A DNA stretch of 64,000 bases from Bacteroides cellulosilyticus (GTDB lineage Bacteria > Bacteroidota > Bacteroidia > Bacteroidales > Bacteroidaceae), in contig NZ_CP081903.1 of NCBI RefSeq assembly GCF_020091405.1, forward strand, positions 4,278,501 through 4,342,500. Direction: 5' to 3'. A model generated the notes under the pieces. It was given only the letters and a program-made list of their open reading frames with translations. It was not told the DNA's origin and searched no databases. Below are positions 12,064 to 52,602 of this stretch, one piece after another. The stretch's first letter is position 1. Each line of letters begins with the position of its first letter. The translations under genes were made by a program, and so were the position numbers.

Positions 12064-12089
12064 GAGTACAAAATAGGCCGTTTTTCGTC
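12064..12089 (+). promoter_or_regulatory. ECF-type promoter motif upstream of GH106
   Basis: GAGTAC, 16 bases, CGTC, preceded by T and followed by T. This is the first of nine copies of TGAKTAC-N16-CGTC in the pectin locus. The distance to the GH106 ATG is 180 bases, but a 123-bp palindromic element (12099-12221) lies between. Without it the gap would be 57 bases, within the range of most other copies (30-77). Confidence 0.75.
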
Positions 12090-12098
12090 TTTTAGTAT

Positions 12099-12221
12099 GG
12101 TTATGAATCTTTTCACCACAGAGGACACAGAGTTCACAGAGTTTTTAGGCTTCTAGTTCAGAGATAATTATAACCTCTGTGTCCTCTGCGTCCTCTGTGG
12201 TGAAATAATTCCTTTCTTTTC
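12099..12221 (+). repeat. 123-bp imperfect palindromic element, left copy
   Basis: The outer arms are inverted repeats of each other (TTCACCACAGAGGACACAGAG near 12111 and its near-complement ending near 12204) around an asymmetric centre. The same 123 bases recur in inverted orientation at 63281-63403 with about eight differences by eye. Similarity covers the flanks as well as the stem, so this is a dispersed element and not just a hairpin. It lies between a promoter motif and the GH106 gene. Confidence 0.85.
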
Positions 12222-12269
12222 CGATATGAATTAATAAACTCCTTACTCACATAAATAATTTAGATAAGA

Positions 12270-15200
12270 ATGAAAAGTCCGCTAAGATTCCGAATATTCA
12301 TAGTATCCTTACTGTTGTGGATCGTTGCTGATTCTGCCGTTGCTCAACAGATACGTTCACTTCACGAACAATTTCTTCATCCTTCGGAAGAAGCAAAACC
12401 CTGGACGTTTTGGTATTGGATGTACGGTGCCGTATCAAAAGAAGGGATTACCGCCGATTTGGAGGCTATGAAGCAAGCCGGGTTGGGAGGCACGTATCTG
12501 ATGCCGATTAAGGGAATTCATGAAGGAGCGCAATATAGCGGAAAAGCACAACAACTGACACCTGAATGGTGGGAGATGGTGCGTTTCAGTATGGAAGAAG
12601 CCGATCGTTTGGGGTTAAAGTTGGGCATGCATATCTGTGATGGTTTTGCATTGGCCGGTGGTCCCTGGATCAGTCCGGAGGAATCTATGCAGAAGGTGGT
12701 ATGGAGCGATACAATCGTTGACGGTGGCAAACTCAAGGCGTTCCGTCTGCCACAGCCCGAGGCCTATGAGGGTTTTTATGAAGATATCTCTCTGTTTGCT
12801 TTGCCCGTAAAGGAAGTTCCGGATGAGATGCCGGCCCGGATAACATGTGTCAATATAGCTATGGAAGAGCAGGCTGATTCTCCCAAAGCGGTGAATATGG
12901 ATGCCGCCGGTGTGATCCGTTCTTCATATCCTTGTTATATCCAGTATGAATATGAACATCCTTTTACCTGCCGTAACGTTGAGGTGATTCTGAGCGGGAA
13001 CAATTATCAGGCACATCGACTGAAAGTGACGGCAAGTGACGACGGGGTGAATTTCCATTTCGTGAAACAGCTGGTACCCGCCCGTCAGGGATGGCAGAAT
13101 ACGGATGAGAATTCAACGCATACGATTCCTGCAACTACTGCCCGCTATTTCCGCTTCTATTGGACTCCTGAAGGGAGTGAGCCGGGAAGTGAGGATATGG
13201 ATGCAGCCAAGTGGAAACCTAATTTGAAGATAAAGCAGCTGCGACTGCACCGGGAAGCCCGGTTGAATCAGTGGGAGGGGAAAGCCGGACTGGTATGGCG
13301 TGTTGCCCCGGCTACAAAGGAAGAGGAAGTAGGGAAGAAAGATTGTTATTCCCTTTCACAGATCATCAATCTGACCGGTCAATGTAGAGCGGGCATATTG
13401 ACAACTACTCTTCCCAAGGGAAAATGGAAATTATTGCGTATGGGGCATACAGCCACCGGACATACCAATGCCACTGCCGGAGGGGGAAAGGGGTTGGAAT
13501 GTGATAAGTTCAGTGCGAAAGCAGTGCGTAAACAGTTCGACAACTGGTTTGCACAGGCATTTCTAAAGACGGATCCCAACGTTGCGCGTCGTGTATTGAA
13601 GTACATGCATGTGGATAGCTGGGAATGTGGCAGCCAGAATTGGAGTGATACGTTTGCCGCTGAATTCCGGAAACGTCGCGGATACGACCTGATGCCTTAT
13701 TTACCGTTACTGGCGGGTATTCCGATGGAAAGTGCAGAACGGAGTGAAGAGATTCTGAGGGATGTTCGTATTACTATATCCGAGCTTGTTGTTGATGTCT
13801 TTTATAAGGTATTGGCAGATTGTGCCAAAGAATATGATTGTCAGTTCTCGGCAGAATGTGTAGCCCCCACGATGGTGAGCGACGGGTTGTTGCATTACCA
13901 AATGGTGGACCTTCCCATGGGAGAATTCTGGCTGAACAGTCCGACCCATGACAAACTGAATGATATGCTGGATGCTGTCAGTGGGGCGCATATTTATGGA
14001 AAGAACATTATCCAGGCAGAAGGATTTACGGAGGTGCGCGGCACATGGGATGAGCATCCCGGAATGCTGAAGGCGTTGCTCGACCGGAATTACGCACTGG
14101 GGATTAACCGTCTTTTTTATCATGTGTATGTCCACAATCCATGGCTGGATCGCAAGCCCGGCATGACATTGGATGGCATCGGCCTTTTCTTTCAGAGGGA
14201 TCAGACCTGGTGGAATAAAGGGGCAAAGGCACTTTCCGTTTATGCCACTCGTTGCCAGGCATTGTTGCAGTATGGGCATCCAGTAGTGGATATTGCCGTT
14301 TTCACAGGCGAAGAGATTCCGAGGCGCGCGGTGCTGCCGGACCGGTTGGTTCCTTCTCTTCCGGGTATTTTCGGGGCGGAGCGTGTGGAAAGTGAGCGTA
14401 TTCGCCGGACGAATGAGGGACAGCCTTTGCGTGTGCGTCCTGTGGGCGTTACGCATTCTGCCAATATGGTTGATCCGGAGAAATGGGTGAACCCGCTTCG
14501 TGGTTATGCCTATGATAGTTTCAACAAGGATGCATTGCTCCGGTTGGCGAAAGTGGAAGATGGCAGGATGACATTGCCGGGCGGAGCCGGTTATAAAGTG
14601 TTGGTCGTGCCACTTCCCCGACCGATGAATCCGGAGCAGGCGGAGTTGTCTCCTGAAGTAGAGCGGAAGATCAATGAATTGAAGAAAGCGGGTATATTGA
14701 TTCCTGATCTTCCTTATACCGGAGATGACTTCTCGGCATACGGATTGGAACGTGATCTGATTGTGCCGGAAGATGTTGCCTGGACACATCGCCGGGGAGA
14801 ACAAGGGGATATTTATTTTATTGCTAACCAACGGGAAGAGACACGTACTTTCACCGCAAGTATGCGTATCTGCGGAAAGAAGCCCGAATGTTGGAATCCG
14901 TTGACGGGAGAGATTGACTTCCGGCCTCCGTATGAGCGGAAGAATAATCGAACGGAAGTTACACTGACGTTGGCGCCGAATGAATCCGTATTTATCGTAT
15001 ATCCGGCAGAAAAGAACTGTTCCGGTGACGGGAATAGTTCACAGAAGCGGCAGAAGGAGGGGAGCCGTCCTGCGAAAGAGTTTTCGGAGGTTGCGGTGGA
15101 ATTGGGAGAGTATACAGTGAACTTCATAGCTAATGGCAGGACCGTAAATCGGAAAGAGCTTTTCGATTGGAGCCGGGAGGGGGATGAGAAGATCCGGTAC

Positions 15201-15557
15201 TATTCGGGAACAGCCGTCTACAGGACTGCATTCCATTGGAAAGGCAAACCGGAAACAGCGGTTTATCTGAATTTGGGAAAGGTCTGCGATCTGGCAACTG
15301 TCCGCGTGAATGGCGTGGACTGCGGAACAATCTGGACTGCTCCTTACCGGACTAATATTACGGCAGCTTTAAAAGAAGGTACAAATGAACTTGAAATAGA
15401 GGTGACCAATACCTGGGCGAATGCTCTCAAAGGAGCTGATGAAGGAAAAGCACCGTTCAGCGGAATCTGGACGAACGCCAAATATAGGAGGCAGGAAAAA
15501 ACACTGCTCCCGGCAGGACTGCTGGGACCGGTTTCATTCCTTTCTGGCGGGTTTTGA
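12270..15557 (+). CDS. GH106 family alpha-L-rhamnosidase
   Basis: A 1095-residue secreted enzyme with a signal peptide ending AVAQ near residue 26. The N-terminal catalytic region begins with the GH106 hallmark WTFWYWMYG followed by ITADLEAMKQAGLGG, and continues through a long alpha/beta barrel. The last 130 residues (VYLNLGKVCDLATVRVNG onward) form a galactose-binding-like beta-sandwich. GH106 enzymes remove alpha-L-rhamnose from rhamnogalacturonan I/II or related glycans, which fits the pectin locus. It is the first gene of the locus, with a promoter motif upstream and a palindromic element inserted between motif and gene. It is followed directly by a large inverted repeat overlapping the stop codon. 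Confidence 0.9.
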   Translation: MKSPLRFRIFIVSLLLWIVADSAVAQQIRSLHEQFLHPSEEAKPWTFWYWMYGAVSKEGITADLEAMKQAGLGGTYLMPIKGIHEGAQYSGKAQQLTPEWWEMVRFSMEEADRLGLKLGMHICDGFALAGGPWISPEESMQKVVWSDTIVDGGKLKAFRLPQPEAYEGFYEDISLFALPVKEVPDEMPARITCVNIAMEEQADSPKAVNMDAAGVIRSSYPCYIQYEYEHPFTCRNVEVILSGNNYQAHRLKVTASDDGVNFHFVKQLVPARQGWQNTDENSTHTIPATTARYFRFYWTPEGSEPGSEDMDAAKWKPNLKIKQLRLHREARLNQWEGKAGLVWRVAPATKEEEVGKKDCYSLSQIINLTGQCRAGILTTTLPKGKWKLLRMGHTATGHTNATAGGGKGLECDKFSAKAVRKQFDNWFAQAFLKTDPNVARRVLKYMHVDSWECGSQNWSDTFAAEFRKRRGYDLMPYLPLLAGIPMESAERSEEILRDVRITISELVVDVFYKVLADCAKEYDCQFSAECVAPTMVSDGLLHYQMVDLPMGEFWLNSPTHDKLNDMLDAVSGAHIYGKNIIQAEGFTEVRGTWDEHPGMLKALLDRNYALGINRLFYHVYVHNPWLDRKPGMTLDGIGLFFQRDQTWWNKGAKALSVYATRCQALLQYGHPVVDIAVFTGEEIPRRAVLPDRLVPSLPGIFGAERVESERIRRTNEGQPLRVRPVGVTHSANMVDPEKWVNPLRGYAYDSFNKDALLRLAKVEDGRMTLPGGAGYKVLVVPLPRPMNPEQAELSPEVERKINELKKAGILIPDLPYTGDDFSAYGLERDLIVPEDVAWTHRRGEQGDIYFIANQREETRTFTASMRICGKKPECWNPLTGEIDFRPPYERKNNRTEVTLTLAPNESVFIVYPAEKNCSGDGNSSQKRQKEGSRPAKEFSEVAVELGEYTVNFIANGRTVNRKELFDWSREGDEKIRYYSGTAVYRTAFHWKGKPETAVYLNLGKVCDLATVRVNGVDCGTIWTAPYRTNITAALKEGTNELEIEVTNTWANALKGADEGKAPFSGIWTNAKYRRQEKTLLPAGLLGPVSFLSGGF

Positions 15558-15686: not shown

Positions 15687-15786
15687 ATGTCTGCACCAGT
15701 TATGATTCTATTTTAGATACGGATGCTATCAAAACTAACGCCCTCCCTTGGTAAGACTTTCCTTTCTTACTATGAATACTTAAAAT

Positions 15787-15999: not shown

Positions 16000-16164
16000 T
16001 CTCAATTATCCTTTGCCTCCTTTCTGCACTGTTATGAATGAAATGATTATTTATCAGCTCGTCCTGACGAATTACAAATCCGATTGAATCGGAAATTGCT
16101 GAAAGTGCACGGAATGGCTTCGAATAAATTCATGGTTGTTGCTTGGATTTCAACATTTTCCCTT

Positions 16165-16172
16165 TACCTTTG
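16165..16172 (+). promoter_or_regulatory. Bacteroides -7 element for the Rpn gene
   Basis: TACCTTTG matches TAnnTTTG. Transcription would begin close to or after the ATG at 16178, which favours the ATG at 16211 as the true start; AGGAG lies about 10 bases before it. Confidence 0.55.
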
Positions 16173-16210
16173 TTGTTATGAAAACAAAACAAGAGAAAGG
16201 AGACGGACTT

Positions 16211-17065
16211 ATGGCAAATACTTATATTCGTTTCGATTGGGCAATGAAGCGCCTTTTGCGCAACAAGGCCAATTTCGGAGTGCTCGAAGGCCTCCTGACC
16301 ACCCTGCTTAAGGAGACTATCACGATTCAGAAACTGCTGGAAAGCGAAGGCAATCAGGAAGATGAATTTGATAAGTATAACCGTGTGGACATACTCGCCG
16401 AGGACTCCAAAGGCGAACTCATCCTGATTGAAGTGCAGAATAACAACGAATACGCTTACTTCCAGCGCATGCTGTTCGGCACCTCAAAACTGGTAACCGA
16501 ATACATCAACCGTGGTGAAGGCTACGACAAGGTGCGTAAAGTGTACAGTGTCAATATCGTATACTTCGCCTTGGGTAGTGGGAAGGATACCGTGTATCAT
16601 GGAAAAACAGAGTTCCGGGGAATACACGACGGCGACATCCTTGAGCTGACTCCTTTCCAGAAACAAACCTTTAAAGTGGACAGTGTGAGCCAGCTATATC
16701 CCGAGTTTTATATCCTGAAAGTGAATGACTTTAACCAAGTAGCCAAAAGCCCGCTCGAAGAGTGGATTTACTACCTGAACACAGGTGACATTCCTGATAC
16801 CGCCACCGCTCCGGGTTTGCATGAAGCCCGCGAGCGATTGAAACTGGACCGGATGACCAAAACGGAGCTGGATGCTTATTATCGCCATCTGGATAATGTT
16901 GTCATCCTGCGGAGCAATATCTATACGGAACGCGAGGAAGGGCGCTGGGAAGGCCGTGAAGAAGAGCGTATGGCCAATGCCCGTAAAATGAAAATGAAAG
17001 GGCTGGATAATCAGCTGATTTCTGACATTACCGGTCTGACGATTGACGAGATAGATAAGCTGTAG
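16211..17065 (+). CDS. Rpn-family PD-(D/E)XK nuclease (transposase-like)
   Basis: About 284 residues from the ATG at 16211. The opening TYIRFDWAMKRLLRNK and the nuclease core VDILAEDSKGELILIEVQNN, with the Asp and the Glu-x-Gln of a PD-(D/E)XK site, identify the recombination-promoting nuclease family related to YhgA. Members stimulate RecA-independent recombination and are often found in many copies. The C-terminus is a basic helical tail (LDNQLISDITGLTIDEIDKL). It is out of place among pectin genes: it has its own housekeeping promoter, its own terminator, and strong palindromes on both sides (15939-15999 and 17145-17229). It was probably inserted between GH106 and the esterase operon. Confidence 0.85.
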   Translation: MANTYIRFDWAMKRLLRNKANFGVLEGLLTTLLKETITIQKLLESEGNQEDEFDKYNRVDILAEDSKGELILIEVQNNNEYAYFQRMLFGTSKLVTEYINRGEGYDKVRKVYSVNIVYFALGSGKDTVYHGKTEFRGIHDGDILELTPFQKQTFKVDSVSQLYPEFYILKVNDFNQVAKSPLEEWIYYLNTGDIPDTATAPGLHEARERLKLDRMTKTELDAYYRHLDNVVILRSNIYTEREEGRWEGREEERMANARKMKMKGLDNQLISDITGLTIDEIDKL

Positions 17066-17258: not shown

Positions 17259-17284
17259 GAGTACAAACTTCCCTCTCTTCCGTC
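17259..17284 (+). promoter_or_regulatory. ECF-type promoter motif of the esterase operon
   Basis: TGAGTACA, then CGTC after a 16-base spacer, 77 bases before the esterase ATG at 17362. The alternative upstream ATG at 17257 runs through the motif and is therefore unlikely to be the start. Confidence 0.75.
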
Positions 17285-24012: not shown

Positions 24013-27000
24013 ATGAAGAAACGATCTATTCTAATACTATTTCTATCGGTGATAGGGCTTACAAGCTTTGCCTATCCCAGCATGATTGTGGAACACTACA
24101 CGGCCGAACGAGGGTTACCTAATAATATTGTAAACTGTACTTTAAAGGGTAGCGAGGGCTTTGTCTGGTTCGGCACTTGGTATGGCTTATGTAGCTTTGA
24201 CGGTACTAAGTTTCGTTCGTACGATAACCGTGACGGATTTTATTCGGCTGACATTCCTCCACGTAAGATTCAGCGTATCGTAGAAGATAAGAATGGCTTT
24301 CTTTGGCTCAAGACCATTGATCGTAAACTGTATCTGTTTGATAAGAAACATGAAAGTTTTCATGCGGTTTATGACGATGTGAAGGAATACTCTGAGAATA
24401 TTCAGATTATCAAGATTCAGACTACTGCGGATGGGGATGTCCTATTACTGACCAAAGATAAGAGTCTGCTTCGTGCGCATACTGATAAAGAGGGCAAAAT
24501 TACAATGAAGCAATTGCACGATTCACGCCCTAATATTAACCACTACGATATGCGTTTGAAGCATAATGTGTTATGCGAGACTTCCGAATTTATCAATTGG
24601 GTGGGTATGGATTATCAGATACTTTCGTTAAGGAAAGGAGCGGGGTTGAAAGATAAGCCTGCCGATTTCATTCAGAAGAAGATAGCCGGTAGCCCCGACC
24701 AGTTCACCTGTGCGTCTTATAATTCCAGATGTTTATGGTTAGGCGACCGGAACGGACACATCTATAGTATTGATCCGGAGAATGGAGTGGTCAATCGTTA
24801 TGAAATACCGGGAATGGATCAGCCGGTTGTAAATTTGCTGGTAACAGAGACAGGGTTGGTGTATATTACTACAAGTGAAGGAGTATACGAGTATAATATC
24901 GGTTATAAGCAATTGACAAAATTACCGCTTTCCATCGACGGGAGAGAAACAGGAACTATATTCATAGACAAATATGATAAAATCTGGTTTCAGGAAGGTA
25001 ATAATGCATTGGTATACTATGATCCTTTAAATAAAGCCAATCGTCGCTTTACATTTCCTAAACAGAATTCCATAGGAAATTTTGAAATGCAAGATGCCGG
25101 TGAACAGGGTATGTTTTTTCTGACTCCGGGCGGAGAGATTCTTTTGTTCGACCGGGAGGAACTGGAGATGGTTCGCCTGAATCAATCAAAGCCTTTTGTC
25201 GATGATGCTCCCGGACAACTGTTTTTTCATCTATTGCTGGATAAAGACGAGATTCTCTGGTTGGCTTCTACAGATAATGGGGTGTACAGGGTTAACTTTC
25301 CCAAGAAGCAGTTCCAGGTACTTAAAGAAGTGTCTCCGGTGCCGGTTGGTGATGAAAAACCTAATTCCTGGAATCAGGGGATACGCGCTCTGTATCAGGC
25401 AAAGAATGGCGATATTTGGGCAGGAACCCGTTGGCAGGCCCTTTATCGCCTTGATAGTAACGGACAGGTAAAGCAAGTTTTCTCGGAAAAGAATTATCTG
25501 GTGGGAGCTGTATATCATATCATGGAAGATAAAGATGGGAATCTTTGGTTCTCTACCAAAGGCAATGGTCTTGTGAAGGCTGAACCGGATATGAATTCTC
25601 CGCAAGGGTTACGCTTCATACGTTATAAAAATGATCCTAAGAATCCGAATTCAATCAGTAGTAATGATGTGTATTTCACTTATCAGGATAGCCAGGGACG
25701 TATCTGGGTTGGTTTGTTAGGTGGTGGTCTGAATCTGATCAGTGAAGCGAACGGGACAATTGCCTTCAAGCATAAGTATAATGGTTTGAAGCAATATCCG
25801 CTTTATGGGCTTTATATGGAAGTGCGTACAATGATGGAGGATAATGACGGACGTATCTGGGTAGGAACAATGGATGGTCTGATGTCTTTTGATGGTCATT
25901 TCACTAATCCCGAAGAGATTCAATTTGAAACTTACCGCCAGGTGAGTGAACGTTCGAATGTTGCTGACAATGATATTTATGTATTGTACAAAGATTCCGA
26001 ATCACAAATCTGGGTAAGCGTATTTGGGGGAGGATTGAATAAACTGGTACACTATGATAAAGAAAGGCGGGTACCTGTCTTTAAATCTTACGGCATCCGT
26101 GAAGGTATGAATAATGATGTAGTAAAATCAATAGTAGAAGATAAAGACGGAAATCTCTGGTTTACTACAGAAATAGGATTGTCTTGTTTCAATAAAGACA
26201 CCGAACAGTTCCGTAATTACGACAGGTACGATGGATTCCTGAACGTTGAGTTGGAAGAAAGCAGCGCGCTCCGTACTTTGAACGGTGACTTATGGCTTGG
26301 TTCCAGGCAAGGTATTCTCACATTTTCACCTAATAAACTGGAAACGCAGAATATGAACTATGATACACGCATAGTCGACTTTAAAATCTCCAATCGTGAT
26401 TTGCGTAGTTTTCATGAAGATCCTGTATTGAAAGAATCGATTACATTTGCCGATGCAATCAGGCTAAAGTATAATCAGTCTATGTTTACCATTGAATTTG
26501 CTGCATTGAACTTCTATAATCCCAATCGTGTGTTTTATCGATATATCCTTGAAGGATACGAGAATGAATGGCATTACAATGGCAAAAACCGTATTGCTTC
26601 TTACACGAATGTGCCGCCCGGATCCTATACTTTCCGGGTGGAAACAATAGATGAAGCCAATCCGGAGCTCGTTTCCAACCGCACGTTGGCCATCACTATT
26701 CTTCCGCCCTGGTGGTTAAGCTGGTGGGCTATTGTGATTTATGTAGTCTTGGGTATTATAGCCCTTTATTTCAGTTTGCGTCTGGCTTTCTTTATGATTA
26801 AAATGAAGAATGACATCTACATCGAACAGAAGGTTTCGGAAATGAAGATCAAGTTCTTTACAAATATTTCTCATGAACTACGCACTCCTCTGACTTTAAT
26901 AAAAGGTCCGATACAGGAATTGAGAGAGCGTGAGACACTTTCACCAAAAGGTGTGCAATATGTGGAACTGATGGAGAAGAACACTAACCAGATGTTACAA

Positions 27001-28437
27001 CTTGTCAATCAGATACTTGATTTCCGAAAGATACAGAACGGAAAGATGCGTTTGCATGTGTCGTTGATTGATTTTAATGAGTTGGTAGTCTCTTTCCAGA
27101 AGGAATTCCGTGTTCTTTCCGAAGAAAATGAAGTTAGCTTTACTTTCCAGTTGCCGGATGCGGCTATTATGATATGGGCGGATAAGGAGAAGCTGAGTAT
27201 TGTTATTCGGAACATCATATCCAATGCCTTCAAATTTACCCCTTCCGGTGGCAGCATCCATGTAGTTGCCGGACTGACAGAAGATGGAGAACACTGTTTC
27301 CTGAGAGTGGAAGATAACGGGATCGGAATCCCCCAGAATAAATTGACCGAGATTTTTGAACGCTTCTCACAAGGAGAGAATGCCCAAAACTCGTATTATC
27401 AGGGTACAGGTATCGGACTGGCACTTTCCAAAGAAATCGTGAATCTGCATCATGGAGTGATTCGTGCTGAAAGTCCTGAAGGAAAGGGAACCGTGTTTAT
27501 TGTAGAACTATTGCTCGGAAAGGAACATTATCGCATTTCGGAAGTCGATTTTTATGTCAGTGACACTGAAACTGCTCCTGCCGGAGGTGTGTCTTCTGCT
27601 GATATCATGGCAGAGGAAGATTCCGAAGAGCAGACGGAAATTGACGCTTCATTGCCGAATCTTTTGTTGGTGGAAGACAATAAAGACCTCTGCCAGCTGA
27701 TCAAGCTGCAATTGGAAGACAAGTTTAATATTCATATTGCTAATAATGGAGTAGAGGGATTGAAGAAAGTTCACTTGTATCATCCCGATATCGTGGTCAC
27801 CGACCAGATGATGCCTGAAATGGATGGTTTGGAAATGTTGCAGTCTATTCGTAAAGATTTCCAGATCAGTCATATTCCGGTTATCATCCTGACCGCGAAG
27901 AATGATGAAGACGCCAAGACGAAAGCAATCACTTTAGGAGCCAATGCTTACATAACGAAGCCTTTTAGCAAGGAATATTTGTTGGCACGCATTGATCAGT
28001 TGCTATCTGAGCGGCTGCTTTTCCGGGAACGGATCCGCCTGCAAATGGAGAATCAGAAAACAACGGAGGAAGATAGTTATGAGCAATATCTTGTGAAGAA
28101 GGATGTGCAGTTCCTTGAAAAGATACATCAGGTGATTGAGGAGAACATGGACGACAGCGATTTTAATATCGACACCATAGCTTCCGGAATAGGATTAAGC
28201 CGCTCGGCATTCTTTAAGAAATTGAAGAGCCTTACCGGACTGGCACCTGTCGACCTGGTTAAAGAGATTCGTTTGAATAAATCTGTCGAACTGATTAAGA
28301 ACACGGACTTAAGTATCTCGGAGATTGCCTTTGCCGTCGGATTCAAAGACTCGGGCTATTATAGCAAGTGTTTCCGGAAGAAATATAACCAGACTCCCCG
28401 CGAATATATGAGTGAATGGCGGAAAGGGGAGAAATAA
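24013..28437 (+). CDS. Hybrid two-component system regulator (HTCS)
   Basis: A 1474-residue single-chain sensor and transcription factor. After a signal sequence come periplasmic two-component propeller repeats (many DxxGxLW or DGRIWVG blocks) and a Y_Y_Y domain. A membrane segment follows near residues 899-925, then HisKA with SHELRTP and His954, HATPase_c, a receiver domain from about residue 1217 with phospho-acceptor Asp1264 in VVTDQMMPEMDG, and a C-terminal AraC-type HTH (about 1365-1474). HTCS proteins bind a liberated oligosaccharide in the periplasm and activate their locus. Here the ligand is presumably a pectic oligosaccharide. The stop is two bases from the ECF-type motif of the next gene. 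Confidence 0.95.
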   Translation: MKKRSILILFLSVIGLTSFAYPSMIVEHYTAERGLPNNIVNCTLKGSEGFVWFGTWYGLCSFDGTKFRSYDNRDGFYSADIPPRKIQRIVEDKNGFLWLKTIDRKLYLFDKKHESFHAVYDDVKEYSENIQIIKIQTTADGDVLLLTKDKSLLRAHTDKEGKITMKQLHDSRPNINHYDMRLKHNVLCETSEFINWVGMDYQILSLRKGAGLKDKPADFIQKKIAGSPDQFTCASYNSRCLWLGDRNGHIYSIDPENGVVNRYEIPGMDQPVVNLLVTETGLVYITTSEGVYEYNIGYKQLTKLPLSIDGRETGTIFIDKYDKIWFQEGNNALVYYDPLNKANRRFTFPKQNSIGNFEMQDAGEQGMFFLTPGGEILLFDREELEMVRLNQSKPFVDDAPGQLFFHLLLDKDEILWLASTDNGVYRVNFPKKQFQVLKEVSPVPVGDEKPNSWNQGIRALYQAKNGDIWAGTRWQALYRLDSNGQVKQVFSEKNYLVGAVYHIMEDKDGNLWFSTKGNGLVKAEPDMNSPQGLRFIRYKNDPKNPNSISSNDVYFTYQDSQGRIWVGLLGGGLNLISEANGTIAFKHKYNGLKQYPLYGLYMEVRTMMEDNDGRIWVGTMDGLMSFDGHFTNPEEIQFETYRQVSERSNVADNDIYVLYKDSESQIWVSVFGGGLNKLVHYDKERRVPVFKSYGIREGMNNDVVKSIVEDKDGNLWFTTEIGLSCFNKDTEQFRNYDRYDGFLNVELEESSALRTLNGDLWLGSRQGILTFSPNKLETQNMNYDTRIVDFKISNRDLRSFHEDPVLKESITFADAIRLKYNQSMFTIEFAALNFYNPNRVFYRYILEGYENEWHYNGKNRIASYTNVPPGSYTFRVETIDEANPELVSNRTLAITILPPWWLSWWAIVIYVVLGIIALYFSLRLAFFMIKMKNDIYIEQKVSEMKIKFFTNISHELRTPLTLIKGPIQELRERETLSPKGVQYVELMEKNTNQMLQLVNQILDFRKIQNGKMRLHVSLIDFNELVVSFQKEFRVLSEENEVSFTFQLPDAAIMIWADKEKLSIVIRNIISNAFKFTPSGGSIHVVAGLTEDGEHCFLRVEDNGIGIPQNKLTEIFERFSQGENAQNSYYQGTGIGLALSKEIVNLHHGVIRAESPEGKGTVFIVELLLGKEHYRISEVDFYVSDTETAPAGGVSSADIMAEEDSEEQTEIDASLPNLLLVEDNKDLCQLIKLQLEDKFNIHIANNGVEGLKKVHLYHPDIVVTDQMMPEMDGLEMLQSIRKDFQISHIPVIILTAKNDEDAKTKAITLGANAYITKPFSKEYLLARIDQLLSERLLFRERIRLQMENQKTTEEDSYEQYLVKKDVQFLEKIHQVIEENMDDSDFNIDTIASGIGLSRSAFFKKLKSLTGLAPVDLVKEIRLNKSVELIKNTDLSISEIAFAVGFKDSGYYSKCFRKKYNQTPREYMSEWRKGEK

Positions 28438-28439
28438 CC

Positions 28440-28465
28440 GATTACAAAATGTTTTCTTAACCGTC
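28440..28465 (+). promoter_or_regulatory. ECF-type promoter motif of the first PL1 operon
   Basis: GATTACA and CGTC separated by exactly 16 bases, beginning just after the HTCS stop and 30 bases before the PL1 ATG. This is the one copy that lacks the leading T. Confidence 0.75.
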
Positions 28466-33343: not shown

Positions 33344-33444
33344 CTCTTTATAGGTAATATCTAATAAAAAAGTGTTATAAAACATAGTACTTGTTTTTTC
33401 AATCTCCATATCAGATTTTACCTAAAGATTAAGTCGATACCGCA

Positions 33445-33452
33445 TAGCTTTG
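33445..33452 (+). promoter_or_regulatory. Bacteroides -7 element for the ECF sigma gene
   Basis: TAGCTTTG matches TAnnTTTG, 27 bases before the sigma factor ATG. No TGAKTAC-N16-CGTC copy lies in this gap, so the sigma gene seems not to be directly autoactivated. Confidence 0.6.
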
Positions 33453-33479: not shown

Positions 33480-34031
33480 ATGATGGAACAGACTAATAAT
33501 TCAACCGAAACTTTACTCGCCTCTTTTCAAGCGGGCAATATGGCAGCTTTCTCTGAGCTGTACGATTTGCACATTAATATTCTTTTTAATTATGGGTTGA
33601 AGTTGACTATTGATAAAGAGTTGCTGAAAGATTGCATCCACGATATTTTTGTGAAGCTTTATGTGAAGAAGGACGAACTGGGTGTTATTGACAATCTGAA
33701 GTCCTACTTGTTCATTTCATTAAAGAATAAACTCTGTGATGAGCTTCGCAAACGCATGTATATGTCCGACACGGCTGTCGAAGAGATAAATGTGGGCTCA
33801 TCTACGGATGTGGAAGACGATTATATGGAGGAAGAGAAAACCCGGAACAACCTCTTGCTGGTCAATAACCTTATGGACCAGTTATCTCCCCGGCAGCGTG
33901 AGGCGCTTACCTTATACTATATAGAAGAAAAAAAATACGAAGATATTTGCGAGATTATGGATATGAATTATCAGTCTGTACGCAATTTGATGCATCGGGG
34001 ACTGACAAAACTACGTGCTTTGGTAGGGTAA
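33480..34031 (+). CDS. ECF-type RNA polymerase sigma factor (FecI-like)
   Basis: About 183 residues from the ATG at 33480 (the longer frame to 33450 runs back across the -7 element). Region 2 is seen as FSELYDLHINILFNYGL followed by LKDCIHDIFVKLY and KSYLFISLKNKLCDELRK. Region 4 is LSPRQREALTLYYIEEKKYEDI, then NYQSVRNLMHRGLTKLR. There is no 1.1 or 3 region, so this is an ECF sigma. It would direct RNA polymerase to an alternative promoter; the best candidate is the TGAKTAC-N16-CGTC motif found nine times in this locus. Its usual full-length membrane FecR partner is missing. A 77-residue FecR-like gene follows. Confidence 0.92.
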   Translation: MMEQTNNSTETLLASFQAGNMAAFSELYDLHINILFNYGLKLTIDKELLKDCIHDIFVKLYVKKDELGVIDNLKSYLFISLKNKLCDELRKRMYMSDTAVEEINVGSSTDVEDDYMEEEKTRNNLLLVNNLMDQLSPRQREALTLYYIEEKKYEDICEIMDMNYQSVRNLMHRGLTKLRALVG

Positions 34032-34078: not shown

Positions 34079-34104
34079 GAGTACACGTTCGGGATAATAG
34101 CGTC
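34079..34104 (+). promoter_or_regulatory. ECF-type promoter motif of the FecR-like mini gene
   Basis: TGAGTACA and CGTC with a 16-base spacer, in the 107-base gap between the sigma factor stop and the FecR-like ATG (34 bases upstream of it). It places the putative anti-sigma in the same regulon as the pectin enzymes. Confidence 0.75.
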
Positions 34105-34138: not shown

Positions 34139-34372
34139 ATGAGCGCTAAGGTAAAGTTTTTTTTAATGGATGAAGATTTCATAGATTATGTTCTGGGTGT
34201 GGCTCCGGAATTGGCTTCTCAATGGGAAGCTTATTTCAGAGTACACCCGGAGGACATAATCGATGCGGAGGAGGCGAAAGCAGTATTATTGGCTCCTGCC
34301 GATGTGGATTGCGGTTTCTTGAAAAGTGAATGTGCAATGTTGAAAGATAGGATTATTAGCAGTATATTTTGA
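34139..34372 (+). CDS. Stand-alone FecR N-terminal-like protein, putative mini anti-sigma factor
   Basis: A 77-residue acidic protein with no signal or membrane segment. MDEDFIDYVLGVAPELASQW followed by EAYFRVHPE and AEEAKAVL resembles the sigma-binding N-terminal domain of Bacteroidetes FecR anti-sigma factors, which normally continue through a membrane helix into a 200-residue periplasmic domain. Here the protein stops after the first domain (LKDRIISSIF). It may be a soluble inhibitor that holds the sigma factor regardless of outside signals, or a leftover of a longer gene; the intact promoter motif and reading frame favour function. It follows the sigma gene by 107 bases with its own promoter. 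Confidence 0.6.
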   Translation: MSAKVKFFLMDEDFIDYVLGVAPELASQWEAYFRVHPEDIIDAEEAKAVLLAPADVDCGFLKSECAMLKDRIISSIF

Positions 34373-34437: not shown

Positions 34438-34890
34438 ATGATATTAAAACAAGATATCCCTCATGGCTATGCCTATTGTTTTGCAGGTAAAGACTGCTGT
34501 CCCAAGGCGAACAGTTGCCTGAGAGCCATAGCGGCGAAGTTGCTCACAGAGAGCGAAGAACCGCAACCTCAAACCGTAAATACGGTGAATGCTATTTATG
34601 TTGAGCAATTATCCGACCTGTCTGCCTGTTCCCTTTACCGTTCGAGCGAGCCGCTCCGCTATGCCAAGGGGATGACTCATCTTTTTGACGATTTTCCTCT
34701 GAAAGAAGCTCCCTCCATTCGCTTCAGAGTCGTCAACTGTTTTTCGTGCGAACGTTACTTCTATCATTGTCGTAAGGGAGACCGGTTGATTTCGCCGGAA
34801 GAACAGCGGAAGATAGCCAATGTATTTCGTGCCTCCGGTCTTGGTATTGCTCCCAAATTCGATGGGTTTGAATATGTGATTGCATGGTGA
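34438..34890 (+). CDS. DUF6078-type cysteine-rich protein
   Basis: A 150-residue soluble protein with eight or so cysteines clustered in two places: near the start (CFAGKDCCPKANSCLR) and near the middle (NCFSCERYFYHC). The pattern suggests a metal or Fe-S site. It resembles a Bacteroides family I recall as DUF6078, of unknown function. It has its own housekeeping-like promoter and is probably not part of the pectin regulon. Another small Bacteroides protein of this kind is typical of variable regions, in keeping with the broken KilA-N gene and repeat array that follow. Confidence 0.6.
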   Translation: MILKQDIPHGYAYCFAGKDCCPKANSCLRAIAAKLLTESEEPQPQTVNTVNAIYVEQLSDLSACSLYRSSEPLRYAKGMTHLFDDFPLKEAPSIRFRVVNCFSCERYFYHCRKGDRLISPEEQRKIANVFRASGLGIAPKFDGFEYVIAW

Positions 34891-35252
34891 TTCCTATATT
34901 CTCTCTCAATATAGTTTTTTTAAAAGTTGTCAGCACTTCAGCACTGATAACTCTTAAACCCTTTGTCAGTCGGGGTTTGACGGCAGTGTTGACAAGGTGT
35001 TGGTAAGTGACGACAAGCGTTTTGTCAGCACTGAATTTTAAGCTATTTTCCAGCGTATATTATTATGAATCAAATAAATACTTCGTTTTTGCATGTATGG
35101 AATCTTTTCTCTTAATATGTGCATAAAAGAGCTTTCAAGTGGGTAGTTCTCGGTGCGGACACCCACATCCCCACTATATATTAATTAAAGGGATTAGAGT
35201 CGATAATCAATGTACTACTGTTCTGTTTCCCTACATCCATGTCACTGAATTA
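34891..35252 (+). other. Gene-free stretch with short repeats
   Basis: No gene is supported here. The first 130 bases contain several copies of GTCAGCACT or close variants in both directions and a short hairpin built on AAACCC/GGGTTT near 34957-34982. Farther on, GTGGGT (35139-35144) pairs with ACCCAC (35161-35166). It looks like debris of mobile sequence. Confidence 0.5.
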
Positions 35253-35417
35253 CTGCAAAAGGGAAACAGTCTTACTGCAAGGCGTGTGCAGTTTCGCTGC
35301 AAGGCATGTACAGTGTTACTGTAAAGCATGTGCAGTGCTGCTGTAAAGCATATGCAGTATCACTGCAAGATATGTGCAGTATCATTGCAAGGTATGTGCA
35401 GCAACGTTGCAACACAG
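35253..35417 (+). repeat. 22-bp tandem array, seven units plus a partial
   Basis: Units begin every 22 bases from 35253 (the first is degenerate; clear units start at 35275, 35297, 35319, 35341, 35363 and 35385). The consensus is near CTGCAAGGCATGTGCAGT plus four variable bases. Each unit contains a small dyad, CTGCA-N7-TGCAG, like a binding site for a dimeric protein. Units are contiguous with no constant spacer, so this is not a CRISPR array. Confidence 0.85.
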
Positions 35418-35499
35418 TTATAGCATTACGTGTTAAGAGTAAGAGCATCGATTTTCCGCATTAGGATTACAAAATCTATATTCTTTCGTCTTATTTTTA

Positions 35500-35883
35500 G
35501 ACAATGAGAATGACTATATCAGTCTGACAGATATAGCAAAATACAAAAGCGATGATCCGACTGCGGTTATCGAGAACTGGCTGCGTAACCGAAACACAAT
35601 AGAATATCTTGGTATTTGCGAGAGTTTATACAACCCGAATTTTAAACCCCTCGAATTCGAGGGGTTTAAAAAGGAAGCCGGGCTAAACACCTTTACCTTG
35701 TCGCCAACAAAATGGATAAGTACGACAAACGCAATAGGAAATGAAGGTCAAGCAAAAGATCTGCGGATGTTTCCGCACGGAGCAGGGGGGGCTGACCACT
35801 TTATGAATATTCACTCTGTCGTTGAAACCGCTAAGAAAAACGGAAATTCTAAATATAATGCCATTCTTGCTATTCTTGGATAG
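35500..35883 (+). pseudogene. Broken KilA-N domain gene fused to an unrelated tail
   Basis: The frame reads DNENDYISLTDIAKYKSDD, then ENWLRNRNTIEYLGI, then KWISTTNAIG: the KilA-N DNA-binding domain of Bacteroides phage/island proteins. The expected start (about 15 residues further upstream) is absent; the frame opens at a stop near 35440 with no ATG. After TTNAIG (about 35740) the sequence departs from the family and becomes GAGGADHFMNIHSVVETAKK, which looks like a transposase C-terminus, ending at a stop. Both ends are therefore remnants joined by recombination. An inverted repeat (AACCCCTCGAATTCGAGGGGTT, split around 35655) lies inside the frame. Confidence 0.6.
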
Positions 35884-36044
35884 TGAGACTTAGCATTATG
35901 CATACTTTTGATACTTGAGTAGTTACCTATTTTGAATGACGTGATATTAATAAATTGTAATCAGCTTATGCGATCTTTTTTTTAATTAATCTTGTATTTG
36001 AAATTATTAAAAAGAACTCAGTCCTTTTTTATAGAAGAACTGAT

Positions 36045-36070
36045 GATTACAGAAGATAATTTTTTTCGTC
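36045..36070 (+). promoter_or_regulatory. ECF-type promoter motif upstream of the isomerase-like gene
   Basis: TGATTACA and CGTC with a 16-base spacer, 144 bases before the ATG at 36215. This is the second longest leader of the nine; nothing recognisable fills it. Confidence 0.65.
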
Positions 36071-37267: not shown

Positions 37268-37293
37268 TGAGTACGACATTTCTTGATATACGT
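37268..37293 (+). promoter_or_regulatory. ECF-type promoter motif of the first susCD operon
   Basis: TGAGTAC and CGTC with a 16-base spacer, 49 bases before the first susC ATG. This copy has G in place of A directly after GAGTAC. Confidence 0.75.
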
Positions 37294-37342
37294 CATTTAG
37301 AAAGACAAAACAATTATTAATTTGTTAACTGTTTAAATAGAA

Positions 37343-42300: not shown

Positions 42301-42356
42301 TTGGCTATTTGTTTAGTAAATCATCAATTTGCTTTTACTTGAATTATCAACTAAAA

Positions 42357-43646
42357 ATGAGGGCTATGGAGCTTTTTAAATATTTTATAGTGTTAATGTT
42401 CTTGTGTGGAATTCATTTGAACGGCTTTGCTCAAATCACACGTGCGGCTATATTGGAAAATATAGCCCAAACAGGTGGTGTGTATTATGCCTATCCTGTG
42501 AAGGAAGCGATAGTAACTCCGGCTCCAAAAGGATATAAGCCTTTCTACATCAGTCATTATGCACGACACGGATCGAGGTGGATTCAGTCGGAACAAGATT
42601 ACAAGACTGTAGTTGATATTTTTGAGAAAGCGCATCGAGCCGGAGCATTGACTGCTTTGGGTAATGATGTCCGCAAAAGGATGGCAATAGTATGGGAAGA
42701 CGCAGAAGGGCATGGAGGAGACCTGACTTCTTTGGGGGTAAAACAGCATCGTGAAATAGCTGAAAGGATGTTTCAGAACTATCCTGAAGTTTTCAAGGGG
42801 ACTCCTGCCATGTCTGCGCGTTCCACAACCGTATTACGTTGTGTGTTGAGTATGGATGCATTTTGTGAGCGATTAAAAGAGTTGAATCCTGCTTTACGGA
42901 TTAAGCGTGAAGCTTGTGCTAAATATATGAAATATATGAATTATCATACCCCGGAAGCTGTGGAATTTGTTTCACACCAAGGAATTTGGTATGAGGAATA
43001 TAGAAAATTTAAAGAAAGTCATACTCATCCCGATCGTTTGATTACTTCCTTGTTTAGTAGTTCGGATTATATTCGTAGAAATATAAATCCCGGTGAATTG
43101 ATGTGGGGACTTTACTGGATAGCTTCCGATATGCAGAATGTTGAGATAGGGGTGGACTTCTATGATATATTTGAGGAAGATGAATTATTTGATTTGTGGC
43201 AAGTTTGTAATTATCATAATTATGTATGTGACGGTCCTGCACCTATTAATGGTGGAATAATGGTAGCAAGTGCAAAGTCATTACTTGAAAATATATTGGA
43301 CTCTGCTGATGAAGCTATTAAGTCCGAAACCAATACTGCAACATTACGTTTCGGGCATGATGGGAATATTATTCCTTTGGTAGCATTACTGCAACTGGGA
43401 GATATGTGGAAAGCTGAAACAGAACCTGATAAGTTTTATCAGACATGGTGCAATTTCAAGGTGACTCCAATGGCTGCGAACATTCAAATGGTTTTCTTCA
43501 GAAAAAAAGCATCTGATGATATTATAGTGAAGTTTATGCATTGTGAGAAAGAAGTCGCAGTTCCTATAGAGACAGATATTACTCCTTTCTATCATTGGAA
43601 AGATGTTGAAATATACTATCGTAATCTTTTAAAGAAATTGCCATAG
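42357..43646 (+). CDS. Histidine acid phosphatase-family protein (MINPP-like)
   Basis: About 429 residues from the ATG at 42357 with a signal peptide ending NGFAQ. The catalytic phosphohistidine motif is seen as ARHGSRW (Arg70, His71) and the proton donor as FGHDGNIIPL (His334, Asp335). Its size and layout match Bacteroides multiple-inositol-polyphosphate phosphatases, which strip phosphate from phytate outside the cytoplasm. It sits 57 bases after the first susD and has no promoter motif of its own, so it is co-expressed with pectin uptake. Phytate and pectin occur together in plant cell material, which may explain the pairing; that is inference. Confidence 0.85.
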   Translation: MRAMELFKYFIVLMFLCGIHLNGFAQITRAAILENIAQTGGVYYAYPVKEAIVTPAPKGYKPFYISHYARHGSRWIQSEQDYKTVVDIFEKAHRAGALTALGNDVRKRMAIVWEDAEGHGGDLTSLGVKQHREIAERMFQNYPEVFKGTPAMSARSTTVLRCVLSMDAFCERLKELNPALRIKREACAKYMKYMNYHTPEAVEFVSHQGIWYEEYRKFKESHTHPDRLITSLFSSSDYIRRNINPGELMWGLYWIASDMQNVEIGVDFYDIFEEDELFDLWQVCNYHNYVCDGPAPINGGIMVASAKSLLENILDSADEAIKSETNTATLRFGHDGNIIPLVALLQLGDMWKAETEPDKFYQTWCNFKVTPMAANIQMVFFRKKASDDIIVKFMHCEKEVAVPIETDITPFYHWKDVEIYYRNLLKKLP

Positions 43647-44294: not shown

Positions 44295-44320
44295 GATTAC
44301 ATATTTTTTAGTTGTTCGTC
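44295..44320 (+). promoter_or_regulatory. ECF-type promoter motif of the second susCD operon
   Basis: TGATTACA and CGTC with a 16-base spacer, 72 bases before the second susC ATG. Confidence 0.75.
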
Positions 44321-47794: not shown

Positions 47795-47824
47795 GTGATG
47801 TAATAATATAAATAAGATTAGAAT

Positions 47825-49906: not shown

Positions 49907-49939
49907 ATCGCTCTTGAAATTTTTTGTTTAAGATCGCTT

Positions 49940-49972
49940 AAAGCTGCCAGGTGATTTCCATCTGGCAGCTTT
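49940..49972 (+). terminator. Intrinsic terminator after the second susCD operon
   Basis: An 11-bp stem (49940-49950 with 49962-49972) around an 11-base loop, ending in a short T run. Confidence 0.85.
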
Positions 49973-50031
49973 TATTAGAATGATTGCTGTTATAAGTTAT
50001 CGATTATTTTGCGATTAAAAAAGTTTCATGT

Positions 50032-50057
50032 GATTACAAAACATTTTTATCTTCGTC
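50032..50057 (+). promoter_or_regulatory. ECF-type promoter motif of the second PL1 operon
   Basis: TGATTACA and CGTC with a 16-base spacer, 34 bases before the ATG. Confidence 0.75.
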
Positions 50058-50091
50058 TAATAAATACATATAATTAATATATAAGAGAACA

Positions 50092-51819
50092 ATGAAAAAG
50101 AAAGTAATACTAATAGTTTGTACTGCCGCAATGCTGACTCCGACTATTGCATGGGCACAATACCCGCAATTAACGGATGAAGCTAAGGAGACTTATAAGA
50201 AAATGATAACTGAAGAACGGAAACGTTCGGATGAAGCTTGGGCAAAAGCACGGCCTGTTGTTGAGAAAGAGGCTCGGGAAGGTCGTCCATATATTGAATG
50301 GGCTTCTCGTCCGGATGATCTTCCTCAAGCCGGCATTCCCGCTTTCCCCGGAGCTGAGGGTGGTGGTATGTATGCGCTTGGAGGTCGTGGTGGTAAAGTA
50401 ATTACAGTAACCAATTTGAATGATCGTGGTCCCGGTTCTTTCCGTGAAGCTTGCGAAACAGGTGGTGCACGTATCATTGTATTCAATGTAGCGGGTATTA
50501 TCCGTTTAGAATCTCCCATTATTGTTCGTGCTCCTTATGTAACGATAGCCGGACAAACAGCTCCGGGAGATGGAGTTTGTATTGCTGGAGAGTCATTTTG
50601 GGTGGATACTCATGATGTAGTGGTACGCCACATGCGTTTCCGTCGTGGTGAAACGAAAGTCCACCACCGTGACGACTCATTTGGAGGTAATCCGATTGGC
50701 AATATTATGATTGACCATTGCTCATGTACCTGGGGGCTGGATGAGAATATTTCTTTCTATCGTCACATGTACAGTCCGGGCGAAGGCTATAAAGATGAGA
50801 AACTTCCGACTGTCAATGTAACCATTCAAAATACAATTTCCGCTAAGGCACTGGATACATATAATCATGCTTTCGGTAGTACCTTGGGTGGTGAGAACTG
50901 TGCCTTTATGCGCAATCTTTGGGCCAGTAATGCTGGACGTAATCCCTCTGTCGGCTGGTATGGCATTTTCAATTTTGTGAATAACGTTGTGTATAATTGG
51001 GTACACCGTTCAATGGATGGCGGTGATTATCGTGCGATGTTCAATGTGGTCAATAATTATTATAAACCAGGACCGTTGACTCCGAAAGATTCTCCGGTGG
51101 GACATCGTATTTTGAAACCGGAAGCCGGGCGTAGTAAGTTGAACTATAAAGTATATGGTCGTGTATATGCAGATGGTAATGTAATGGAAGGGTATCCTGA
51201 AATAACTAAAGACAATTGGGCAGGTGGTATCCAGATTGAAACTCAAAAGGATACTGAGGGATATACCGATCAAATGCGTGCTTATCGGCCTTTCGTTATG
51301 CCTTATATCAATATTATGTCTGCTAATGATGCTTATGATTATGTCTTGAAATATGTGGGCGCCAATATCCCTTGTCGTGACATTGTTGATGAGCGAGTTA
51401 TTGAGGAAGTGAAGACCGGTGTGGCTTATTATGAAAAGAAACTTCCCAAAGATGCTTATGGAGATAGATGGGGGTTAGCACCGAAATCTCAAGATGAAGA
51501 AGGTTATTTTAAGTATCGTCGTTTGCCGAAAGATTCTTATAAATCGGGGATTATTACTGATATTCGCCAGATGGGTGGTTATCCTGAATATAAAGGTACT
51601 CCATACGTTGATACAGATGGCGACGGTATGCCTGATAAATGGGAAATAGAGAATGGGCTGAATCCGAATGATCCGAGTGATGCGAATGAAGACTGCACCG
51701 GCGATGGATATACCAATATTGAGAAATACATCAATGGTATCAGCACCAAGAATAGGATTGACTGGACTGATATGAAAAATAACTACGATACATTGGCTGA
51801 AAAAGGTAAATTAATGTAA
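50092..51819 (+). CDS. PL1 family pectate lyase-like enzyme with Ca-binding tail (copy 2)
   Basis: A 575-residue secreted enzyme with a signal peptide ending AWAQ. It has the same architecture as the PL1 protein at 28496: FPGAEGGGMYALGGRGG, VTIAGQTAPGDG, IMIDHCSCTWGLDEN, then an insert and a C-terminal calcium repeat (DTDGDGMPDKWE, DCTGDGYTNIEKYING). The two are clear paralogues, with an extra segment near residue 475 here (PKSQDEEGYFKYRRL). By position it resembles BT1023-type PL1_2 lyases that cut the RG-II homogalacturonan backbone. The DUF3826 gene starts 2 bases after its stop. Confidence 0.9.
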   Translation: MKKKVILIVCTAAMLTPTIAWAQYPQLTDEAKETYKKMITEERKRSDEAWAKARPVVEKEAREGRPYIEWASRPDDLPQAGIPAFPGAEGGGMYALGGRGGKVITVTNLNDRGPGSFREACETGGARIIVFNVAGIIRLESPIIVRAPYVTIAGQTAPGDGVCIAGESFWVDTHDVVVRHMRFRRGETKVHHRDDSFGGNPIGNIMIDHCSCTWGLDENISFYRHMYSPGEGYKDEKLPTVNVTIQNTISAKALDTYNHAFGSTLGGENCAFMRNLWASNAGRNPSVGWYGIFNFVNNVVYNWVHRSMDGGDYRAMFNVVNNYYKPGPLTPKDSPVGHRILKPEAGRSKLNYKVYGRVYADGNVMEGYPEITKDNWAGGIQIETQKDTEGYTDQMRAYRPFVMPYINIMSANDAYDYVLKYVGANIPCRDIVDERVIEEVKTGVAYYEKKLPKDAYGDRWGLAPKSQDEEGYFKYRRLPKDSYKSGIITDIRQMGGYPEYKGTPYVDTDGDGMPDKWEIENGLNPNDPSDANEDCTGDGYTNIEKYINGISTKNRIDWTDMKNNYDTLAEKGKLM

Positions 51820-51821
51820 TT

Positions 51822-52493
51822 ATGAAAAAGATACTGTTACTCTCTTTGTTATTTCTTACCGGATGGGCGTTTACCGCTCAAGCCATTGATCTGGACAAAG
51901 AGAATCGTGATCCTGAATATGTAGAATCCATTGTGAAACGCTCGCAGAAAATTGTGGATAAACTTGGCATTAATGATGCGAAGGTAGCTGAAGATGTACG
52001 CAATGTTATTGCCAATCGCTACTTCACATTGAATGACATTTATGAGGTACGTGATGCGAAAATAAAAGAAATCAAAGAGTCGGGATTGACTGGCGATGCG
52101 AAAAATAATGCGTTGAAAGCTGCAGAAGACGCTAAAGATGCAGCTCTCTACCGGATTCATTTCGCTTTTCCTGCAGAATTGTCCCTTTTTCTGAATGAGG
52201 AACAAATAGAAGGAGTGAAAGACGGGATGACGTATGGAGTTCTGGAAATAACTTATAAATCGCATCTCGACATGATTCCTTCTCTTAAGGAAGATGAAAA
52301 GGCTCAGATTTATGCTTGGCTGAAAGAGGCCCGTGAATTTGCCATTGATGCTGAAAACTCAGATAGGAAACATGCTTTTTTCGGCAAGTACAAAGGGCGA
52401 ATCAATAATTATCTTACTAAACGTGGATATGATTTGAAGAAAGAGCGTGAAGAGTGGTATAAACGTGTGAAGGCACGTGGAGGTTCTCTGTAA
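51822..52493 (+). CDS. DUF3826 domain protein
   Basis: A 223-residue exported helical protein with a signal peptide ending AQA. It contains charged helices and the blocks FLNEEQIEGVKDGMTYGVL and WLKEAREFAIDAENSDRKHAFF. Related sequence forms the C-terminal 150 residues of the CE19-like esterase at 61336. The gene starts two bases after PL1 copy 2, so the two are translated together. The function of DUF3826 is unknown; its repeated partnership with pectin enzymes suggests a binding or activating role. A strong terminator follows. Confidence 0.85.
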   Translation: MKKILLLSLLFLTGWAFTAQAIDLDKENRDPEYVESIVKRSQKIVDKLGINDAKVAEDVRNVIANRYFTLNDIYEVRDAKIKEIKESGLTGDAKNNALKAAEDAKDAALYRIHFAFPAELSLFLNEEQIEGVKDGMTYGVLEITYKSHLDMIPSLKEDEKAQIYAWLKEAREFAIDAENSDRKHAFFGKYKGRINNYLTKRGYDLKKEREEWYKRVKARGGSL

Positions 52494-52521
52494 ACGCCAT
52501 AATGGTTAGTGTTTGATGTGG

Positions 52522-52550
52522 AAAAAGGCAACTTGTAAGGTTGCCTTTTT
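52522..52550 (+). terminator. Intrinsic terminator after the DUF3826 gene
   Basis: An 11-bp stem (52522-52532 with 52540-52550) around a 7-base loop followed by a T run. Confidence 0.9.
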
Positions 52551-52576
52551 TGTTGTTGAAACTTCCACCTCTATTT

Positions 52577-52602
52577 GAGTACAAATCTCTTTTTCCACCG
52601 TC
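52577..52602 (+). promoter_or_regulatory. ECF-type promoter motif of the GH43 operon
   Basis: TGAGTACA and CGTC with a 16-base spacer, 44 bases before the GH43 ATG at 52647. Confidence 0.75.

Follow-up and report, generated by a model that had tools for sequence, protein, structure and literature searches.

The closest described relatives of the system discussed here are the FecI/FecR/FecA surface-signalling system and its form in Bacteroides polysaccharide utilisation loci (PULs), which comprises an extracytoplasmic function (ECF) sigma factor, a FecR-like anti-sigma factor and a SusC protein with an STN domain. Our analysis concerns a 64,000-nucleotide stretch of the Bacteroides cellulosilyticus genome (contig NZ_CP081903.1, 4278501-4342500; the window), in which an ECF sigma gene and repeated copies of the motif GAKTAC-N16-CGTC lie in a locus for the plant polysaccharide rhamnogalacturonan II (RG-II). 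As in the Fec-type systems, the sigma factor adjoins a partner that is homologous to the FecR cytoplasmic domain, and SusC/SusD genes are among the putative targets, but here the partner, termed mini-FecR, lacks both the membrane and the periplasmic portion, and STN is missing from the SusCs tested. Artificial N-terminal fragments of the FecR 1-85 type (pro-sigma) correspond to the same domain at a similar length, whereas mini-FecR has its own gene and its own motif copy and is conserved in all 36 loci that could be tested. We consider it probable, on the strength of sequence comparison, that one ECF sigma factor reads GAKTAC(A)-N16-CGTC and drives an RG-II regulon in which the sensing half has been lost, input comes from a hybrid two-component system (HTCS) and from the carbon regulator Cur, and mini-FecR provides feedback.

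In Streptomyces, the SigE/CseBC and SigQ/AfsQ1Q2 systems place a sigma gene under a two-component system, as we propose here, and CfrX and the ZAS proteins are soluble anti-sigma factors, as mini-FecR is soluble (PMC8999054); the present case differs in having an HTCS in a polysaccharide locus and a soluble partner derived from FecR. Among the literature matches listed, we found neither an HTCS-driven ECF sigma factor in a polysaccharide locus nor a FecR-derived soluble partner, and no paper on this sigma factor or motif. The RG-II loci of B. thetaiotaomicron (B. theta; BT0977-1030, HTCS BT0981) likewise combine an RG-II gene set with one HTCS, RG-II being the primary substrate of the BT0981 locus, and two further RG-II-induced PULs have no regulator associated with them (PMC3243724, Table 2 and Fig. 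S1 legend). An HTCS motif could not be predicted for BT0981 (PMC3878776), and the available portions of both papers describe no ECF control of these loci. The Bacteroides motifs TAnnTTTG, PM2 and EcfO are also two-box promoters, with sequences different from GAKTAC-N16-CGTC. As of 2020 a motif was known for no B. theta ECF sigma factor (PMC7366714); a 2025 study put forward PM2 for SigW-1 and SigH-1 (PMC12596196). Predicting ECF promoters has been called challenging and dependent on start-site data (PMC3878776). The wiring is more unusual than the initial annotation of this DNA proposed, although its components (an ECF regulon, an ECF sigma driven by a two-component system, a FecR partner) are of known kinds.

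The motif in the RG-II locus and in related genomes

An exact scan of both strands revealed ten copies of GAKTAC-N16-CGTC in the window, all on the + strand, whereas 100 dinucleotide shuffles of the same sequence gave a mean of 0.12 and at most two. When the spacer was varied from 10 to 22 nt, a spacer of 16 gave ten copies on the + strand and any other spacer none or one per strand. Motif and Pfam scans place the copies before GH106 (12064..12089; ATG 12270), an esterase with a SASA domain (17259..17284; ATG 17362), a PL1-like gene followed by DUF6298 (28440..28465; ATG 28496; the position is kept in many relatives), mini-FecR (34079..34104, just after the sigma gene), an AP_endonuc_2/isomerase-like gene (36045..36070), susC1-susD1 (37269..37294), susC2-susD2 (44295..44320), a PL1-like gene followed by DUF3826 (50032..50057), and GH43 followed by a BT1020-like enzyme (52577..52602; ATG 52647). 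The tenth copy (35465..35490), near a KilA-N-like remnant, has no long open reading frame (ORF) after it. The initial annotation had listed nine of these, all of which stand, with 37268 corrected to 37269; it had overlooked the one at 35465. Its further observations, a leading T in eight of the nine and 30-77 nt from CGTC to an ATG in seven, also hold, the 17259 site being measured to ATG 17362 although another ATG is closer. The PL1 labels are taken from that annotation and not from Pfam, which matched only TSP3 repeats in the gene after the 28440 site.

The complete genome (6.94 Mb) has 20 exact copies, against 15 of a reversed-pattern control. Thirteen of the 20 fall within one RG-II locus of 83.6 kb (4290564-4374139), and the remaining seven all lie inside stop-free frames of 384-781 codons, so that the frequency of the motif in coding sequence does not speak against a promoter role. 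In the locus, an ORF starts 26-180 nt after CGTC at 12 of the 13 exact sites, the exception being 35465. Allowing one mismatch in a 129-kb region added six sites, one of them convincing: it lies at 4353100 of the contig on the minus strand, 36 nt before a divergent GH95-GH88-apiosidase-GH78 operon whose Phocaeicola vulgatus counterpart carries the exact motif. The logo of these 14 sites reads TGAgTACAAA-N13-CGTCtt, and at 13 of them the housekeeping box TAnnTTTG is not present within 75 nt downstream. A further one-mismatch copy (56674) lies inside the BT1020-like gene, before GH78, with an exact copy at the same place in P. vulgatus (L184:7573); it may reflect either coding conservation or an internal promoter.

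Pfam identified in the window GH106, esterase, DUF5703, GH2, HTCS, DUF6298, ECF sigma, two SusC/SusD pairs, histidine phosphatase, DUF3826, GH43, a BT1020-like enzyme, GH78 and GH28, and beyond it GH78 with a BNR domain, apiosidase, GH88, GH95, a GH141 domain and several GH2. The susCD pairs together with BT1020-like, apiosidase and GH141 genes by which an RG-II PUL is recognised are thus all present, and we take the gene set of this locus to be that of RG-II loci. What had been described as a pectin locus is, more specifically, an RG-II locus, and it extends about 38 kb beyond the window.

For comparison across 158 Bacteroides genomes we searched for GAKTACA-N15-CGTC with a control pattern and called a genome sigma-positive if it contained a match to the sigma factor at E <= 1e-45. 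The 42 sigma-positive genomes contain 386 copies of the motif (control 65), the 116 sigma-negative ones 162 (control 181). At least four copies are found in 41 of the 42 and in 11 of the 116, respectively; six of these 11, among them the ones with 15, 10 and 7 copies, come from assemblies that are only 60-94% complete. The BT1020-like family PF24067 occurs in 43 genomes, of which 38 are sigma-positive, and is missing from four sigma-positive ones (G201, G280, G286, G326). The sigma-negative genomes that have it are G055 (99% complete, a divergent 638-aa relative, no motif copies) and the incomplete G269 (5 copies), G271 (4), G279 (none) and G321 (10). The cleanest control, a complete sigma-negative genome carrying the full RG-II locus, was not found among the 158.

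The motif is present around orthologous loci of other Bacteroides and in the genus Phocaeicola, also where the RG-II genes are scattered. In B. xylanisolvens and P. vulgatus these genes are spread across hundreds of kb, with the motif retained in the fragments that were read. B. xylanisolvens XB1A has 20 copies in total (control 11): five at 412625-503679 adjoin the sigma gene, and four on the opposite strand at 759026-771613, about 255 kb from it, precede GH43/BT1020-like genes, PL1-like/DUF3826 genes, a susCD-containing group and an isomerase-like gene. P. vulgatus has 20 copies (control 7), and there the motif precedes GH95-GH88-apiosidase-GH78, GH127-GH141 (GH127, like KilA-N above, is a name that does not come from Pfam), another enzyme and the BT1020-like gene; these groups lie at 3.35, 3.36, 3.41 and 3.48 Mb, with the sigma gene at 3.70 Mb. 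Between orthologous sites the boxes are constant and the spacer letters vary.

Comparison supports the view that the motif behaves as an ECF promoter, since its two boxes keep a constant distance of 16 nt (17 in some relatives) and it lies close upstream of genes, lacks TAnnTTTG after 13 of the 14 sites, co-occurs with the sigma factor and is retained where the locus is broken up. The earlier proposal that the ECF sigma factor encoded at 33480 reads the motif and switches on the whole locus is well supported by comparison in its core, while binding of the motif by this sigma factor is inferred from their co-conservation.

A stand-alone FecR cytoplasmic domain as putative partner

The sigma gene (33480..34031, + strand) encodes a protein of 183 aa with regions 2 and 4 only (Pfam region 2: 25.5, cut-off 24; region 4_2: 59.5, cut-off 25.7), which scores 85.6 with TIGR02937 (cut-off 42.9) and 86.4 with the Bacteroides subfamily model TIGR02985, under its cut-off of 126.4. 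A stretch of region 4 around MNYQSVRNL is near-invariant in the aligned orthologues and different in distant relatives. The gene is followed by the motif and then by a small ORF (34139..34372, + strand), which encodes mini-FecR, a stand-alone FecR cytoplasmic domain of 77 aa. The motif between the two genes is exact in 20 of 36 orthologous loci and present in 34 of 36 if a spacer of 16-17 and CGTY are allowed, a looser form that matched 42 of 6931 random windows from the same loci.

All 36 testable orthologues of mini-FecR are 76-97 aa long and lack the transmembrane and periplasmic part of FecR (the sequences of L085 and L090 stop too close to the sigma gene for mini-FecR to be seen), which rules out a pseudogene cut by the neighbouring insertion. 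Pfam and NCBIfam models found no match in mini-FecR, but an alignment of 27 hand-picked family members, one of them from the window, matched the N-termini of five full-length FecR proteins (hhalign probability 97%, E 1e-10). The predicted structure has five helices (mean predicted local distance difference test score, pLDDT, 84.7); against the PDB neither Foldseek nor VIA-align, the latter run on Foldseek's two chains only, found a match for the model, and a sequence search gave no credible one. Of the initial label "FecR-like", the homology is thus borne out, and in place of a membrane anti-sigma factor we find a soluble cytoplasmic domain of about 80 aa.

Twelve more distant sigma loci offer a comparison. 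In seven of them (sigma identity 29-39%) a full-length FecR of 370-420 aa follows the sigma gene, while the other five (L094, L096, L097, L103, L104) gave no FecR domain hit. Five of six SusCs tested after a full-length FecR contain an STN domain, compared with none of five tested from mini-FecR loci, two of which are from the window. In a tree of 36 mini-FecR sigma factors (L057 dropped), seven with full FecR and three outgroups, the 36 group together in a single clade with a support of only 0.68, which makes one loss of the sensing half possible. At L098 and L100, TGAGTATAAA-like boxes after the sigma gene precede the full-length FecR genes, which suggests that sigma factors related to this one use a related -35 box.

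It is conceivable that the sigma factor reads the motif and conventional surface signalling nevertheless persists, with RG-II sensed by a membrane FecR encoded elsewhere or by an unrecognised signalling domain of SusC. The genome encodes 15 proteins with a FecR_C domain, and the related sigma factors do have full-length FecR and STN-SusC partners. However, none of the 15 is encoded within the RG-II locus, STN is lacking from the five SusCs tested, and the mini form is found in every testable orthologue; we regard this explanation as unlikely.

The effect of mini-FecR on its sigma factor could be of either sign: FecR 1-85 activates FecI and a FpvR fragment inhibits FpvI (PMC9249621), while in B. 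theta the loss of the anti-sigma factor BT1876 raises PUL24 expression (PMC11501099). We lean slightly towards a brake rather than an activator.

Proposed inputs to the sigma gene and other readings of the motif

The proposal that the sigma factor switches on the whole locus needs one correction: the ECF motif is absent upstream of the sigma gene itself in 39 of 39 sequences, which rules out autoregulation. All 39 have instead a TAnnTTTG box 35-113 nt before the start used (a count made without a chance control), which in the window is the housekeeping -7 box at 33445..33452, + strand (consensus from PMC7366714). A Crp/BT4338-like palindrome (TATGTTnTAnAACATA; window 33371..33386, consensus from PMC3878776) is found with at most two substitutions in 22 of the 39 and exactly in three, against 0.6% of 1425 background windows, with the best match free to fall anywhere in 260 nt. 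Between palindrome and box lies a conserved block (33394..33422, + strand) in near-gapless register in most upstream sequences, which is self-similar only at an offset of 21 (z 3.2, next 1.7). This test used 31 of the 39 upstreams, the near-duplicates L057, L059, L061, L062, L067, L069 and L079 and the footprint-less L092 being left out. In the 129-kb region the block has a single place within two substitutions, the next match, with five, being inside the HTCS gene. HTCS sites are direct repeats with a mean spacing of 21 bp (PMC3878776), which makes the block a candidate HTCS site.

The HTCS gene (24013..28437, + strand) encodes a propeller sensor (Reg_prop, Y_Y_Y), a kinase (HisKA, HATPase), a receiver and an AraC helix-turn-helix in one chain, according to Pfam. 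Of 38 sigma loci, from Bacteroides to Paludibacter metagenome-assembled genomes, 28 also contain an HTCS more than 50% identical to this one. Of five genomes without an adjacent HTCS, three have a full-length orthologue elsewhere (65%, 69% and 56%), the first of them, in P. vulgatus, lying some 14 kb ahead of the sigma gene; in the genome of L092 the orthologue is partial. The initial annotation had presented the locus as controlled by an ECF sigma factor rather than an HTCS. The novelty of the wiring stands, yet the ECF sigma does not replace the HTCS, whose gene sits in the conserved block of genes and which probably acts upstream of the sigma factor.

Could the motif itself be an activator site, for instance of this HTCS, rather than a sigma promoter? 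An HTCS gene in the locus is indeed co-conserved, but the motif has two unequal boxes at a fixed spacing, 26-180 nt before an ATG, which is unlike the direct repeats of HTCS sites, averaging 21 bp in spacing (PMC3878776), and 13 of 14 sites lack the TAnnTTTG box downstream. We have rejected the HTCS site on these grounds and judge an activator site of any kind very improbable. We attach equally little weight to the idea that the motif is an ECF promoter read by another ECF sigma factor, the neighbouring one being a mere passenger: Bacteroides genomes do contain many ECF sigma factors and the link between sigma and motif is a comparative one, but the excess of the motif tracks this sigma factor over 158 genomes, and a copy lies between it and its partner gene. 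Chance or base composition is ruled out, for although copies elsewhere in the genome do not exceed background, ten occur where shuffles predict 0.12 and orthologous sites are kept in another genus.

Several observations weigh against a motif regulon under this sigma factor with HTCS and Cur input. Five complete sigma-negative genomes have 4-6 motif copies (control 1-3). Because the sigma factor, the motif and the RG-II genes occur as a linked package in genomes that are themselves related, the counts do not amount to independent tests; dispersed RG-II genes that still have the motif provide help beyond them. L087 and L092 have no motif before mini-FecR, and L092 has no sigma promoter footprint. 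The palindrome shows two substitutions in the window and 4-5 in L066, L067, L089 and L092, and the 21-bp signal came out of a test of 25 offsets. No HTCS orthologue was found in the draft B. acidifaciens genome (L060). Finally, B. theta without BT0981 keeps 78.3% of wild-type growth on RG-II (PMC3243724), a mild effect for a master switch, so that, if the two species are wired alike, basal or other input to the sigma gene would be needed.

The motif, its distribution, the scattered layout, the mini-FecR family and the sigma-promoter footprint are established by comparison; from them we propose the following circuit. Its ancestor would have been a FecI/FecR/STN-SusC surface-signalling system, which lost its sensing half while FecR shrank to a soluble cytoplasmic domain of about 80 aa. 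The signal would now enter probably at transcription of the sigma gene from its housekeeping promoter, which Cur would raise in response to carbon status through the Crp/Cur-type palindrome, as would, probably, the co-conserved HTCS in response to RG-II fragments through the 21-bp direct repeat; both contacts are suggested by the promoter footprint. The sigma factor would then transcribe susCD, the enzymes and mini-FecR from about 14 promoters on both strands, and would work in trans in relatives with dispersed RG-II genes. Made from a sigma-type promoter, mini-FecR would bind the sigma factor and close a feedback loop, either as a soluble brake or as an activator, the natural equivalent of the artificial FecR 1-85. 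We somewhat favour the broader view that a surface-signalling ECF system without its sensor has been rewired as a second-tier amplifier under an HTCS and a carbon regulator, with mini-FecR as the feedback element and much the same wiring kept across Bacteroides, Phocaeicola and Paludibacter-type bacteria.

Other genes of the locus and significance

Between mini-FecR and the isomerase-like gene (34438-35890) the window contains a DUF6078 gene and the KilA-N-like remnant; the DUF6078 gene is also found in B. stercorirosoris (L055), and B. cellulosilyticus L064 shows neither that gene nor a gap at this place. Two genes of the PDDEXK_2 transposase family (16136-17065 and L021:11394-12362) lie within the RG-II locus, and two fimbrillin-like (Mfa_like_1) genes stand among its operons on the minus strand (L021:13745-18189). 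The two SusC/SusD pairs are separated by a histidine-phosphatase gene of branch 2 (42309-43646). Repeated CACAGAG/CTCTGTG, possibly a hairpin, occurs downstream of the first motif, ahead of the GH106 start (12110-12200).

Few plant polysaccharides match RG-II in complexity, and with a motif marking RG-II operons across genomes, the co-ordination of scattered loci becomes directly testable. A membrane-free FecR encoded by a separate gene would offer a natural experiment for learning how the FecR cytoplasmic domain affects its sigma factor.

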